A program made the position numbers and the translations under genes. Positions 58,998-64,000 of a stretch of DNA of 64,000 nt are shown here, in pieces; positions within the stretch are counted from its first letter, which is position 1, and each line of letters opens with the position of its first letter. Origin of the DNA: Xenophilus aerolatus (lineage in GTDB: Bacteria > Pseudomonadota > Gammaproteobacteria > Burkholderiales > Burkholderiaceae_C); the NCBI GenBank assembly GCA_030418545.1, contig QAIB01000002.1:744001-808000 (forward strand), in the 5' to 3' direction. Under the pieces are notes generated by a model. The model had not been told where the DNA came from, did no database searches, and saw only the letters and a list, made by a program, of their open reading frames with translations.

Positions 58998-59516
58998 ATG
59001 GACCTCGACCTGCGCACGCTGACCCGACGCTTCGCCCAGCCCGGCCGGCTGGAAGCGATCCACCTGCGTCCCGCGCGGCGCGCGCCGGTGCAGGCCGTGC
59101 ACGAAGCCGTCGCCATCGCCGGCCGCGGCCTCGATGGCGACCGCAGCGCCCGGGCCGCCACGGTGGGCGGCAAGCGCCAGGTCACGCTGCTGCAGGCCGA
59201 ACACCTGCCCGTGATCGCCGCGCTGGCCGCGCGCCCGCGCGTGGAGGCCGCGGACCTGCGTCGCAACCTCGTGGTGTCGGGCCTCAACCTCGTCGCCGCA
59301 CGCGCGCTGTTTCGCGACCAGCCGATGGTGCTGCGCCTCGGCGATGCGGTGGTGCTGGAGCTCAGCGGCCCCTGCGAGCCGTGCTCGCGCATGGAGGAGC
59401 TGCTGGGCCCCGGCGGCTACAACGCGCTGCGCGGCCATGGCGGCATGACCGCGCGCGTGCTCGCCGGTGGTGTGCTGCGTGTGGGCGATGCGGTGCGCTG
59501 CGAGGCGCGGGACTAG
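58998..59516 (+). CDS. MOSC-domain protein
   Basis: A 172-residue MOSC domain protein, a fold used for sulfur and molybdenum-cofactor carriage and in YiiM-like reductases. The conserved sequence [10 protein letters not shown] and the cysteine segment [15 protein letters not shown] (conserved Cys) are present, with [12 protein letters not shown] between. No molybdoenzyme partner is nearby, so the substrate is open. The 3' end overlaps the convergent YdjC/ChbG gene by four bases. Confidence 0.9.
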
Positions 59517-60373
59517 CGGACGAAGCTCGGTCGAACGAACGCGCATTGCGACAGGGGCCGCAGATGCACCTGCACGTCGCCCGCGCTCACCACCGGCTTG
59601 AGCAGCGCGAGCGCCGACAGCTCCTCCACGCGGGCTTCGCCCACCGCATCGCCGTCGACGGCGCGCACCGAGGGGTGGCACATCAGCACGTCGCCCGCGC
59701 GCGCCTGCGCCAGCCAGGCCTGCATGCGGCGCAGGTAGGCGCTGCGGCCGCCGTCGAAACCGTACACGCCGAGCAAACGCCGGCTCATGGGCAGGCCGCG
59801 CTGGCGCGCCAGCGTCTCCAGCCCGGGCCCGCCCAGTGCGTGGATGAGGCGATGCTTGGCGGGCGCCGAGGCCGCTGGACCTGGGGGGCGCGTGCTGCGC
59901 AGCCACGGGGGGGCGCCGGGGTAGCGCGTCGCGAGCGCCTCGACGAGTTGCTCGCGCACGCCGGGCAACTGGTGCACGTGGCGGTGGCCGTCGACGTGCG
60001 CGGGCGCACGGCCCATGGCCTGCTCGAAGCGGTCGAGCTGCGCGTCGATGGCCGCGCGCACGGCCTTCCGGTCGAGCTGGCGTGTCAGGCTGCGCAGGAC
60101 CAGGCCGGGCAGCGAGGCCTCCGCGGGTGAGGGGTCCACCGCCGTGAGGTCCAGGTGCAGGCCCACGTCGGCCTGCTCCGGCGGCAGCACGCGCAGGCGC
60201 CGGGCCCCGGGCAGCCAGGCCGAACGCAGCACCATGCAGCTGGTGGCCGTGACGGCGCCGCGCTCGATCAACGACAGCACGGCCTGGTTGATGCCCTCGG
60301 AGAGGCCGAAATCATCGGCGCAGATGCAGAGGGTGCGGGCGTCGCCGGCCCCGTGTTGGACGAGCGAGCTCAC
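59513..60373 (-). CDS. YdjC/ChbG-family carbohydrate deacetylase (NaxD/LgmC-like)
   Basis: A 286-residue metal-dependent deacetylase. The metal motif [17 protein letters not shown], the HLDLTA segment and [18 protein letters not shown] show the Asp and His ligands of the family. In Francisella the relative NaxD deacetylates undecaprenyl-phosphate N-acetylgalactosamine before transfer to lipid A. The gene is last of a four-gene operon and starts at a GTG overlapping the upstream ArnT-like gene. That setting favours an undecaprenyl-phosphate-linked sugar rather than chitobiose as substrate (inference). Confidence 0.88.
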
Positions 60374-61968
60374 GCCGCTGCTCCCGCGCGAGGAACGGTG
60401 CCCCGCGGGCCGCTGTGCGACAGGCAGTCCGCGCCATCGCCGGCCCGGCCGTCGTGACGCCACACGGCGATGTGGGCGTTGGACGTGACCGGTGTCATGC
60501 CCAGCACCCACGGCGCGAAGACCGGGGCGTCCGGCGGCCCGATGACCCAGCTGCGCCCCGCAGCGCACACGGCCGCCGGCTGCACCTCGATCGGCTGCAG
60601 CAGCCGCGTCGCAGCGTCGGCGTCGAAGCGGGCGGCGTCGGCCAGCTCCTTGCGCCAGTTGTCGCTCGCCTGCGCCACCTCGGGCCGCCAGTCGGCCGCC
60701 ACCACCGCCGGGGCCGGCAGCCGCCAATAGAAGGGCAGCTCGTAGAAGTACTGGCCCAGCATCACCACCCGGTCGCCCGGCGCCACCGCCTGGCCGGCGG
60801 GCAGGTGGAGGGTGGCGTCGGGCGGCGTGCCCAGGCGAGCGGCCAGCACCACGCTGCCCAGGCAGGCCAGCGCGGCGGCACCGGCCGTCGCACCCAGCAG
60901 CCGGCGGCCGGCCCCTGCGGTGGCGGCGCGCCCGGCGAAACGCGCGATGCCGGTGGCCAGCGGTGGCAGGGCCGGCAGCACGTAGCCGATGAGCTTGGAG
61001 CGCGGCAGCGAGAAGAAGAGCACGACCACCACGGCCCAGGCCAGCATGAGCAGGTCCACGTCGTCGAGCCGGCGTCGCGCCCGGCCCGGCCCATCCTCCG
61101 GCCGACGCCAGGCGGCCAGCAGCCACGCCGACCACGGCAGGCACAGGCCCAGCATCACCGGCAGGTAGAACCAGAAGGGGTGCTCGTTGTTGAAGCCGCC
61201 CGCGGCGAAGCGCCGGAAGTGCTGGGTGATGACGAAATAGTCGAAGAAGGCCGGGAAGGTCCGCTGCATGGCGACGAACCATGGCCCCGCGATCGCCAGC
61301 AGCAGCAGCCAGCCCGGCCACCACGCGGCCAGCCGCAGCACGCGCGGCCGCCGGCTGGCGAGGGCCCACAGCAGCACCACGCCCGCCGGCAGCACGACGC
61401 CGATCAGGCCCTTGGACAGCAGGCCCAGCGCGGCAGCCGCGAAGGCCAGGGCCAGTGCGCCGCGCCAGGGTCGGCCGCATTCCCGGGCCAGGGCGGCGTC
61501 CACGGCCGCCAGCACGCAGGCCGAGATGCAGCCGGCCACCAGCATGTCGAGGTTGGCGAACTGTGCCCCCACGTAGAAGAAGGGCGCGCTGCACAGCACC
61601 GCGGTCGCCAGGCGCGCCTGCGCGTGCGAGGCGTGGCGCCGCAGGAACCAGAAGAGCGCGCCCGCCGCCAGCCAGGCACCCACCAGCGAAGGCAGGCGCG
61701 CGGCCCACGGATGAGGACCGGCGACGGCCATGGCGGCGGCACCGATCCAGTAGAAAAGCGGCGGCTTGTGGAAGAAGGGCAGTCCGTTCAGGCGCGGCAC
61801 CAGCCAGTCGCCCGACTGCAGCATGGCGTAGGCCACGCTGGCGTAGCGCCCTTCGTCCGGCGACGTCAGCGGCCGCCAGCCGATGCTCAGCGCCAGCCAC
61901 AGCGCCGCGACGAGGAGGAAGGCCGCATCGCCGCGCGCGCCATCGGGGCGCGCCGGCGCGCGGTTCAT
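60370..61968 (-). CDS. ArnT-like lipid A sugar transferase (GT-C, PMT family)
   Basis: A 532-residue inner membrane glycosyltransferase with about twelve helices. The N-terminal periplasmic loop has RPLTSPDEGRYASVAYAML with the Asp-Glu catalytic pair of ArnT/PMT enzymes, followed by GDWLVPRLNGLPFFHKPPLF. Members move an undecaprenyl-phosphate-linked amino sugar to a lipid A phosphate. Together with the adjacent GT2 and deacetylase it fits FlmK of Francisella or LgmB of Bordetella. Its coding ends overlap both neighbours (ATGA and GTGA). Confidence 0.88.
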   Translation of the reverse strand: MNRAPARPDGARGDAAFLLVAALWLALSIGWRPLTSPDEGRYASVAYAMLQSGDWLVPRLNGLPFFHKPPLFYWIGAAAMAVAGPHPWAARLPSLVGAWLAAGALFWFLRRHASHAQARLATAVLCSAPFFYVGAQFANLDMLVAGCISACVLAAVDAALARECGRPWRGALALAFAAAALGLLSKGLIGVVLPAGVVLLWALASRRPRVLRLAAWWPGWLLLLAIAGPWFVAMQRTFPAFFDYFVITQHFRRFAAGGFNNEHPFWFYLPVMLGLCLPWSAWLLAAWRRPEDGPGRARRRLDDVDLLMLAWAVVVVLFFSLPRSKLIGYVLPALPPLATGIARFAGRAATAGAGRRLLGATAGAAALACLGSVVLAARLGTPPDATLHLPAGQAVAPGDRVVMLGQYFYELPFYWRLPAPAVVAADWRPEVAQASDNWRKELADAARFDADAATRLLQPIEVQPAAVCAAGRSWVIGPPDAPVFAPWVLGMTPVTSNAHIAVWRHDGRAGDGADCLSHSGPRGTVPRAGAAA

Positions 61969-63035
61969 GGCACCGTCTCCTCGAGGCCCTGGCCGCTGTG
62001 CTCGCGCACCACGAAGAGCGGGCGGCCCTTGACCTCCTCGAAGATGCGGCCGACGTACTCGCCCACCACGCCCAGCGACAGCATCTGGATGCCGATGAAG
62101 AACATGAGGCTGACGACGATGGTGGTCCAGCCCGGCACGGGATTGCCGGACACGAGATGATCCAGCACCAGGTAAGTGCCGTAGCCCAGCGCCGGCAGCG
62201 CCATCACCAGGCCCAGGATGCTGATCAGCCGCAACGGCCAGGTGGTGAAGGAGGTCAGGCCGTCCAGCGCCAGGTGCAGCAGGCGCAGCGCGCCGAAGCG
62301 GCTGCGGCCCTGCGCGCGCGGTGCAGGCGTGTAGGGCAGGGCGACGGCGCGAAAGCCCACCCAGGCATACAAGCCCTTCATGAAACGGCTGCGCTCGGGC
62401 AGGGACAGCAGGGCGGCGACCACCTTGCGGTCCATGAGCCGGAAGTCGCCTGCGTCCTCGGGCAGGGGCACGCGGCTCCCGGCGTTCACGAGCCGGTAGA
62501 AGAGCTGGCTGCCCCAGCGCTTGAACGCGGCTTCGTCGGTACGGTTCTCGCGCACGGCATACACCACCTCGGCCCCCGCGCGCCAGTGGGCCACCATCGA
62601 CAGGATCAGCTGCGGCGCGTGCTGCAGGTCGCCGTCGAGCAGCACCACCGCGTCGCCGCGCGCCGCGGCCAGGCCGGCGCTCAGTGCCGCCTCCTTGCCG
62701 AAGTTGCGCGACAGGCTTAGGCAGCGGAAGCCTGCGAGCTGGCACCACTCGCGCGCCACCTGCGCGGTGGCGTCGGTGCTGCCGTCGTCGACCACGATCA
62801 CCTCCCAGCGCAGGCCGCTCTGTTCGAGCGTGCTCTCGAGCAGCGGCAGCAAGTGGCGCAGGTTGGCCGCTTCGTTGAAGCAGGGCACCACGCAGGACAG
62901 GCTCGGCGTGTCGGGAGCGCGCACGGCCTGCGGCACGGGGTCGGTCGCCACCGCGGCGAGACGCGGCCCGCCCACGGGCGGCGCCTGCGGCGGCGAGGGC
63001 ATGTGGCGCAGCACGGCGCCTTGCGCGGGGCTCAT
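61965..63035 (-). CDS. Polyprenyl-phosphate glycosyltransferase, GT2 (ArnC/GtrB type)
   Basis: A 356-residue enzyme expected to put a sugar on undecaprenyl phosphate. The catalytic domain shows LSCVVPCFNEAANL, VIVVDDGSTDATAQV, LSRNFGKEAALSAGL and the metal motif VLLDGDLQHAP. Two C-terminal membrane helices lie around FTTWPLRLISILGLVMALPALG and TIVVSLMFFIGIQMLSLGVV. A 45-residue Pro/Ala-rich N-terminal stretch precedes the domain, and MPSPPQAPP could be a later start. It overlaps both neighbouring genes by four bases. Confidence 0.9.
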   Translation of the reverse strand: MSPAQGAVLRHMPSPPQAPPVGGPRLAAVATDPVPQAVRAPDTPSLSCVVPCFNEAANLRHLLPLLESTLEQSGLRWEVIVVDDGSTDATAQVAREWCQLAGFRCLSLSRNFGKEAALSAGLAAARGDAVVLLDGDLQHAPQLILSMVAHWRAGAEVVYAVRENRTDEAAFKRWGSQLFYRLVNAGSRVPLPEDAGDFRLMDRKVVAALLSLPERSRFMKGLYAWVGFRAVALPYTPAPRAQGRSRFGALRLLHLALDGLTSFTTWPLRLISILGLVMALPALGYGTYLVLDHLVSGNPVPGWTTIVVSLMFFIGIQMLSLGVVGEYVGRIFEEVKGRPLFVVREHSGQGLEETVP

Positions 63036-63613
63036 GGCACCCGCCCCTGCGTCGGCCGGGCACCTTGCTGGATGCGTGCGAAGGCCGGCGCGACACGCTG
63101 CGTCGCCAGGCACTGCAGCGCCATGAACAGGCCCTGCATCGCCAGCGCAAGCACCAGGCCCGCGGCGATGTCCGACGGGAAATGCACGCCCGCATAGATC
63201 CGTGCCCAGCCGGTGGCGAGCGCGAGCAGCGCTGCTGCCGGCGCCCAGCGTCGCAGGCTCGGGCGCGCCGCGAGGGCCAGCGCGATGAAGAACATCACCG
63301 TGGCATGGGTGCTGGGCATGGCGGGGCTGGGGCCATGGGCGATATGCGCGGGGGCCAGGCCCAGCATGAAAGGCCGCGGCAGCCCGATCCGGTCCGCGAG
63401 GGCATGCGCCAGGAAGGACGCGACGCCGGCCATCGCCAGCGCCGCCAGCAGGTAGCCGCGATCGTGCGGCTGGCGCCATGCGGCCCAGCCCATCAGGGCG
63501 GCGCACAGCCAGGCGCCGCCGTCGGCGATGGCGGAGGCGATGGGCAGCAGCCAGGGGGCGGGTGAGGGGCCAGCGGTCATCAGCAGAAACAGGGCGGTGT
63601 CGGGATGCGTCAT
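63032..63613 (-). CDS. PAP2-family membrane phosphatase
   Basis: A 193-residue membrane phosphatase. The three-part PAP2 signature is visible: DRIGLPRPF (first Arg), PSTHATVMF (usually PSGH) and WARIYAGVHFPSDI (catalytic His, Asp). Relatives dephosphorylate undecaprenyl pyrophosphate, lipid A (LpxE/LpxF) or phosphatidate. Heading a lipid A sugar-modification operon, it may recycle the carrier or free a lipid A position (inference). ATG 63613 (MTHPDT) is chosen; an ATG at 63634 is also possible. Confidence 0.87.
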   Translation of the reverse strand: MTHPDTALFLLMTAGPSPAPWLLPIASAIADGGAWLCAALMGWAAWRQPHDRGYLLAALAMAGVASFLAHALADRIGLPRPFMLGLAPAHIAHGPSPAMPSTHATVMFFIALALAARPSLRRWAPAAALLALATGWARIYAGVHFPSDIAAGLVLALAMQGLFMALQCLATQRVAPAFARIQQGARPTQGRVP

Positions 63614-63747: not shown

Positions 63748-64000
63748 TCAGCAGGAGACCGGTGGAGGTGCGAGCGCGGGTGGGCGCGCCCGCCGGGGCG
63801 CCGAAGGTGGGGGCGGGCCGCCGCGGGGGCAGGGCCGGTGGCGCGGCGGCATGGCGAGGCGCAGGGCGGGCGCGATGCGCGGCACGGCGAGCGCCAGCAC
63901 GAGCGCGAGCAGCCCGGTGAAGGCGCCGAGGACATCGGCAAAGGCGTGGGACGACTGCGCGCCGGCGCCCAGCGGCACGAACAGCGTGGTCTCGTGCTCG
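63748..64000 (-). CDS. C-terminal part of a membrane protein (cut by window edge)
   Basis: The minus-strand frame enters at the window edge with EHETTLFVPLGAGAQSSHAF, continues ADVLGAFTGLLALVLALAVP and ends in a Pro/Arg-rich tail. One membrane helix is visible. The AFADVLGAFTGLLAL pattern recalls the last helix of VanZ-like proteins, but this is weak. The low-complexity tail could also be a frame accident. The gene stands 134 bases upstream of the PAP2 gene on the same strand. Confidence 0.45.
   Translation of the reverse strand, partial: EHETTLFVPLGAGAQSSHAFADVLGAFTGLLALVLALAVPRIAPALRLAMPPRHRPCPRGGPPPPSAPRRARPPALAPPPVSC

Follow-up and report, generated by a model that had tools for sequence, protein, structure and literature searches.

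Do environmental Comamonadaceae decorate their lipid A with amino sugars, as a few pathogens are known to do? The question is raised by a four-gene operon near one end of a 64,000-nt stretch of Xenophilus aerolatus DNA (contig QAIB01000002.1, positions 744,001 to 808,000; hereafter the window). The original prediction had assigned this operon to the addition of a hexosamine to lipid A, independently of the arn (aminoarabinose) pathway, with a PAP2 phosphatase as part of the same module. Our analysis leads us to a similar answer: the operon probably directs hexosamine decoration of lipid A of the kind carried out by Lgm in Bordetella or by FlmF2, NaxD and FlmK in Francisella. Its architecture, protein families, fold, clade and active-site signatures are directly seen and are described in turn below.

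The operon genes lie on the minus strand between 63613 and 59513. They encode a YbjG-like PAP2 phosphatase (63613-63032, ATG start, 193 aa; PF01569, 59.9 bits), a GT2 polyprenyl-phosphate sugar transferase (63035-61965, ATG start, 356 aa; PF00535 Glycos_transf_2, 120.2 bits), an ArnT-like GT-C glycosyltransferase (61968-60370, ATG start, 532 aa; PMT_2, 52.4 bits) and a YdjC-fold deacetylase (60373-59513, GTG start, 286 aa; PF04794, 168.3 bits). All four genes are open and in frame, each overlaps the next by four bases (ATGA, ATGA and GTGA, respectively), and all four proteins exceed their Pfam cut-offs; the operon thus stands where it had been placed and holds the predicted enzyme classes. GT2, ArnT-like GT-C and YdjC genes occur together, which is the gene set that defines the Lgm/Flm-NaxD module. 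A fifth conserved gene, missing from the original prediction, lies 134 bp upstream of the PAP2 gene on the same strand and crosses the window edge (64200-63748, of which 63748-64000 is in the window); we call this uncharacterised 150-aa gene DUF150, a label coined here. In Xenophilus sp. E41 one locus gave a 100% tblastn match to the window YdjC as well as to the rest of the operon and the genes around it. No operon promoter was predicted (0 v 0.2 in shuffled sequences), and there were two predicted terminators (v 1.6 in shuffled sequences). The GT2 protein, which ends in two membrane helices predicted from hydropathy, is about 40% identical to two Francisellaceae GT2 proteins and to E. coli YfdH (GtrB), and 33% identical to ArnC; its NCBIfam scores were 248.9 bits for PgfS (cut-off 500) and 176.9 bits for ArnC (cut-off 529).

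The deacetylase was predicted to be NaxD-like, and its phylogeny agrees. YdjC profile scores were bimodal both in the order-level search of 399 genomes (43 places at or above 185.5 bits, the next at 96.9) and in the class-level search of 370 genomes (19 places at or above 169.9 bits, the next at 102.7); one family, that of genome G430, held at least three strong places (253-264 bits), the other matches listed there scoring 70 bits or less. In a tree of 38 selected YdjC rows, whose bootstrap was not fully settled, a split supported at 100/99.5 set 32 proteins, including the window protein and that of the Francisellaceae locus L119, against six outgroup rows: E. coli ChbG, three HpnK proteins over the NCBIfam cut-off (L181-L183) and two proteins under all cut-offs (L184 and L185). 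LgmC was not in the tree. A GT2 neighbour was found for 31 of the 32 clade proteins, and L061 had only a weak one. Residues D20, D21, H73 and H130, which we take to be the metal-binding and catalytic residues of the fold, are invariant in a comparison of 32 sequences. Pairwise, the window protein matched L119 with 127 bits over residues 13-255 at 27% identity, and ChbG with 63.5 bits over residues 13-139. Its NCBIfam scores were 73.4 bits for ChbG (NF002559, cut-off 227) and 67.9 bits for HpnK (cut-off 232.6), whereas E. coli ChbG itself scored 399.5 bits with NF002559. The score of 73.4 against 227 bits and the separate clade speak against identity as a ChbG chitooligosaccharide deacetylase. 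Judged by sequence, the window YdjC groups with deacetylases of the Francisella (NaxD-like) type and others linked to such operons, at a distance from both ChbG and HpnK; the clustering with chitobiose deacetylases that would have contradicted the original prediction did not occur for this protein.

Some observations on YdjC loci stand beside this result. What we take to be a Francisella 16S primer matched the L119 genome (G792) at three places, one of seven genomes being matched; a B. pertussis IS481 primer had no match in 29 genomes. At L119, two different GT2 genes flank YdjC, one of which shares 47% identity with E. coli YfdH (GtrB). Twelve loci of family f5 (L166-L177) carry a divergent YdjC with no GT2 or GT-C matches beside it and were set aside; five of these (L167, L171, L173, L176 and L177) have response regulator and histidine kinase (RR/HK) neighbours, and L167 and L173 have two YdjC genes side by side.

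We examined the GT-C enzyme by structure prediction and by its active-site loops. The AlphaFold model, built with 15 sequences, was of good quality (predicted local distance difference test, pLDDT, 82.5; predicted template modelling score, pTM, 0.85). Foldseek returned C. metallidurans ArnT first (5f15/5ezm, E = 2.6e-20), and VIA-align gave Z 36.9 against this protein (root mean square deviation 3.0 over 464 residues), the next structure, chicken ALG12, reaching Z 25.6. The model is thus that of a full-length ArnT fold, as had been predicted. The loops differ from ArnT. YFEKP is reported to be highly conserved in ArnT and its Lys to be needed for function (PMC5377068), and in 5ezm E84/K85 and H267 contact the metal (PMC7801869). 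The window enzyme keeps D38, R41-Y42, K68 and H250 (the equivalent of H267), with H67 replacing E84 and Q249 replacing E266 of C. metallidurans ArnT. Of the ArnT loop motifs (PMC5377068), RYA is kept and YFEKP becomes FFHKPP, and the loops thus carry the non-ArnT signatures FFHKPP and QH...FNN.

We compared these loop sites over 70 GT-C rows, six of which were missed by the search pattern and read by eye. The residue before KP was H in 44 rows, D in seven, A or G in 16 and E in three, the last being the ArnT proteins of E. coli and C. metallidurans and a further ArnT-like protein in L096. An FN motif after the Q-H/Q site was present in 44/44 H rows, 6/7 D rows and 0/19 A, G or E rows; the L119 enzyme, one of the D rows, has QQ and FN. 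In the GT-C tree, which excluded rows below 240 bits as well as 17 near-duplicate or fragmentary loci from the list, H and D rows grouped with support of 85, or 70 once the long-branch row L099 was removed. The tree does not decide between descent from FlmK and from ArnT (approximately unbiased test, p-AU 0.44 for the rival grouping); the active-site signatures favour the FlmK side.

To place the operon in context we scanned 123 YdjC loci (23 named and 100 others) with purpose-built profiles. The 23 named loci came from a scan with the window YdjC and included none from Bordetella or Francisella. One locus, L158, was dropped because its YdjC match was lost to the overlap filter, leaving 122; at L048 and L052 the GT2 was hidden by the same filter and was scored present by hand from a separate scan. 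The counts include near-duplicate loci, and 20 further regions from the family of genome G279 were scanned outside them. A related GT2 lay within 4.5 kb of YdjC in 113/122 loci, so the linkage of the two genes is not a matter of chance. The 113 GT2-holding loci comprised 80 with GtrA, 16 with PAP2 (15 of them with DUF150) and 17 with neither, and in none did GtrA and PAP2 occur together. Fourteen of the 16 PAP2-type loci are named Xenophilus or Variovorax; the others are L041, an unclassified Pseudomonadota metagenome-assembled genome near the window, and L124, from the window's genus, which has no DUF150. In the YdjC tree the eight PAP2-type rows form one clade (support 99) nested among GtrA-type rows, and the mutual exclusion of GtrA and PAP2 therefore reflects a single evolutionary event rather than 16.

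In general the module consists of GT2, YdjC and one of several GT-C enzymes, usually with GtrA. To this the Xenophilus/Variovorax group locally adds PAP2 and the orphan membrane protein DUF150, which stand where GtrA is missing. The expectation that PAP2 belongs to the module thus applies to that group, to which all 16 PAP2-bearing operons of the 113 belong, and not to the general module. The operon as a whole is a lineage-specific version of a known type of system, and only the combination of a missing GtrA with PAP2 and the orphan protein is new. Among the literature matches listed, none surveyed operons of this type for GtrA or PAP2. In the window genome, one GtrA is encoded elsewhere, on contig C41, beside a weak GT2 match, and could serve the operon in trans. 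A bolder proposal is that the flippase step was rebuilt in Xenophilus and Variovorax, the ancestral GtrA being lost and replaced by the YbjG-like PAP2 and the genus-restricted orphan protein, which alone or with PAP2 would move or meter the hexosamine-bearing carrier lipid; we consider this improbable.

Some GT2-YdjC operons of other lineages, most of them with GtrA, pair with a different GT-C subfamily that has FW[A/G]KPPLS or a similar motif and keeps EH. The loci concerned were L066, L091, L093-L096, L098, L101, L105, L107, L122, L128, L130, L151, L152, L154, L155, L160 and L162. Such differing partners give the impression of a single cassette for the hexosamine donor that supplies more than one kind of transferase.

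DUF150 is present in 15/16 PAP2-type loci and has a ratio of nonsynonymous to synonymous substitution rates (dN/dS) of 0.22 v Xenophilus aerolatus. With the best 11 candidates per genome scored, it was found in 3/339 genomes of the family, all with the window's genus code, and no match was seen in two other genomes listed for that genus. It has two predicted membrane helices, an acidic/His loop and a Pro-rich tail. There was no Pfam match at E ≤ 1; the AlphaFold model was weak (pLDDT 69, pTM 0.33), with two long helices flanking the loop, and with this weak model as query Foldseek returned no fold match in the PDB. Second copies lie near the operon at L047 (3428-3910, minus strand) and L062 (2035-2481, plus strand), one of them on the opposite strand.

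We propose the following route for the window operon. By its family, the GT2 enzyme would place N-acetylglucosamine or N-acetylgalactosamine from the UDP-linked sugar on undecaprenyl phosphate (Und-P) in the cytoplasm, and YdjC, by its clade, would deacetylate the product to a cationic Und-P-hexosamine. The loaded carrier would then be flipped, presumably by GtrA (by family) in most relatives and here perhaps by a GtrA coded elsewhere or by the orphan membrane protein. The GT-C enzyme, by its fold and by analogy with known loci, would transfer the hexosamine onto a phosphate of lipid A, releasing Und-P, and PAP2 may convert undecaprenyl pyrophosphate (Und-PP) into Und-P, making up for the Und-P that the pathway ties up. 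By analogy with Bordetella, the cationic sugar would lower the affinity for cationic peptides and so confer peptide resistance (PMC8168481).

Several observations weigh against this reading. The function is named by no curated family, the NCBIfam ArnT, ChbG, HpnK and ArnC models all scoring far under their cut-offs, and the window operon has no flippase gene. Within its clade the window YdjC lies at some distance from the Francisella row L119, and the YdjC of L184 (genome G244), which has GtrA and GT2 as neighbours, falls outside that clade and scores less than the cut-offs for HpnK and ChbG. A grouping of H rows and ArnT references was not rejected, in a tree from which LgmB is absent. No lipid A structure of this group was among the literature matches listed, in a search that named Variovorax and not Xenophilus and in which no listed title concerned Variovorax lipid A. 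Elsewhere the gene set accompanies markedly different GT-C proteins, or none detected within 4.5 kb (20/113 GT2-holding loci), and acceptors may therefore differ among loci.

The last point bears on an alternative that we judge unlikely, in which the same donor pathway delivers hexosamine to an O-antigen or core sugar, a phospholipid or an envelope protein in place of lipid A phosphates. The occurrence of the GT2-GtrA-YdjC set with several GT-C subfamilies suggests varied acceptors, and glucosaminyl-phosphatidylglycerol, made by gpgSDF, is a known cationic lipid. However, the ArnT fold of the window GT-C extends over its full length, with Z 36.9 v 25.6 for the next fold, and gpgSDF is a different gene set. 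We rejected identity with the gpgSDF operon, since that system combines a GT4 synthase (gpgS) with a deacetylase and a flippase, whereas the window has GT2 and GT-C enzymes. A 4-amino-4-deoxy-L-arabinose (L-Ara4N) pathway of the ArnT type, recruited with YdjC in the place of ArnD, has the ArnT fold in its favour, and kinship with ArnT is not rejected by the deep GT-C tree (p-AU 0.44); it is nevertheless highly improbable. The genome has no ArnC-like GT2 elsewhere, YFEKP has become FFHKPP, and E266 of C. metallidurans ArnT is replaced by Q. The NCBIfam ArnT model (NF009784) gave the window GT-C 189.5 bits against a cut-off of 567, and we rejected an L-Ara4N transferase equivalog on this score and on the replaced YFEKP. 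The proposed independence from arn fits with the window genome having one ArnT-like protein (E ≤ 0.001), no second one and no ArnC-like GT2, within a search that did not extend to arnA, arnB and arnD. The next-best genome match to the operon GT2 scored 32.5 bits, where E. coli ArnC scored 179 bits against that GT2, a rough comparison as the searches differed.

For the PAP2 protein the choice is between carrier recycling and action on lipid A itself. Of two E. coli PAP2 proteins compared, YbjG was matched at 26% identity (E = 8e-15) and LpxT insignificantly (E = 0.84). The motifs RPF, PSTH and R-x5-H-x3-D are kept, covering the catalytic His-Asp-His and RP, and, as in YbjG, the Lys of KX6RP, a motif described for this family of enzymes (PMC6581854), is missing. 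The best NCBIfam match was the YbjG-type model NF008813 (58.7 bits), under its cut-off of 229. The protein is probably a YbjG-like Und-PP phosphatase, unlike LpxT. Pathways that sequester Und-P harm peptidoglycan synthesis, and arnD/E/F/T figure among the genes whose loss should have this effect (PMC12826051); for this reason, and because of its likeness to YbjG, PAP2 may well supply Und-P. A role as lipid A phosphatase or phosphotransferase (LpxE, LpxF or LpxT type) is compatible with hexosamine decoration and draws on the position of H. pylori lpxE downstream of eptA, on PAP2 genes linked to mcr-1 (PMC7559476) and on the ability of LpxE to use Und-PP too (PMC6581854). Against it stand the missing KX6RP Lys and the best match to YbjG in a comparison that covered YbjG and LpxT only, and we regard it as a minority possibility with some claim to attention.

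Upstream of the operon (L002 12275-16900, about 64275-68900 in window numbering, outside the window) lie genes for a beta-ketoacyl synthase, an alpha/beta hydrolase and an RR/HK pair; this block is kept in three Xenophilus-group loci (L040-L042) and was not seen in Variovorax loci. In the Xenophilus group about 3-5 kb separate this RR/HK pair from the operon, and a two-component system was near YdjC in 14/122 loci. We considered a two-component link to the operon and did not use it as evidence, given no such link in Variovorax loci and the low overall count. In the Thiobacillus group (L055 and L057-L060) an RR/HK pair diverges from GT2 beside the operon, and PmrAB-like control is possible there. 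At the other end, a MOSC-domain gene (58998-59516, plus strand) converges on YdjC, the stop ends of the two genes overlapping by four bases.

Hexosamine decoration of lipid A in this operon would extend an amino-sugar pathway, known from a few pathogens, to environmental Comamonadaceae. The signatures FFHKPP with Q-H/Q...FN, as against YFEKP with E-H, could separate hexosamine from aminoarabinose transferases, and the carrier-supply or flippase part of the module appears exchangeable. If the PAP2/orphan pair does carry out the carrier step, it would open up to study the flipping of Und-P-monosaccharides, about which little is known.

How does the operon compare with known systems? The GT2, ArnT-like and YdjC proteins are, we assume, of the LgmA, LgmB and LgmC classes, with FlmF2, FlmK and NaxD as the presumed Francisella equivalents; Bordetella lgm, which puts glucosamine on lipid A phosphates, would thus share its enzyme classes with the window. 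Deletion of lgm in B. parapertussis removed the +161 Da lipid A species, and lgm has also been deleted in B. pertussis (PMC11895810); lgmA-C are required and lgmD is not essential (PMC4993483). The sizes are close: by subtraction of coordinates the B. holmesii lgm locus measures 3490 bp, with an ArnT gene of 1590 bp and 857 bp beyond it (PMC5454989), and the window GT2-ArnT-YdjC set 3523 bp, of which the ArnT gene takes 1599 bp and the part towards YdjC 857 bp, a comparison of coordinates and not of sequence or strand. Unlike lgm, the window operon has no known counterpart of lgmD and adds PAP2 and the orphan gene. Related modifications respond to challenge or control elsewhere, Achromobacter lipid A gaining glucosamine upon polymyxin challenge (PMC9927164) and Acinetobacter naxD being under PmrA (PMC10927774).

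With the Francisella system FlmF2-NaxD-FlmK, which puts galactosamine on the lipid A 1-phosphate, the window shares the YdjC clade that includes Francisellaceae L119, and with the L119 GT-C it shares the FN motif and the Q in place of ArnT E266. Identities to L119 are 27% for YdjC, 32% for GT-C and about 40% for GT2; the loop residue before KP is H in the window and D in L119, whose ArnT-like, YdjC and GT2 genes stand together but on both strands, with no PAP2 match. The E. coli arn operon and C. metallidurans ArnT share with the window the logic of donor lipid and GT-C as well as the GT-C fold; unlike the E. coli operon, the window genome has no ArnC-like GT2, YdjC stands in place of ArnD, and the loop signatures are changed. 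Lastly, E. coli YbjG, which is PmrAB-induced, and the hpap2 genes linked to mcr-1 (PMC7559476) resemble the window in tying a PAP2 gene to lipid A modification. hPAP2 reportedly departs from the His-Asp-His triad at the Asp (PMC7559476), a residue that the window protein keeps, and hpap2 is linked to a phosphoethanolamine pathway, whereas the window PAP2 is bound by its operon to a glycosyl pathway.

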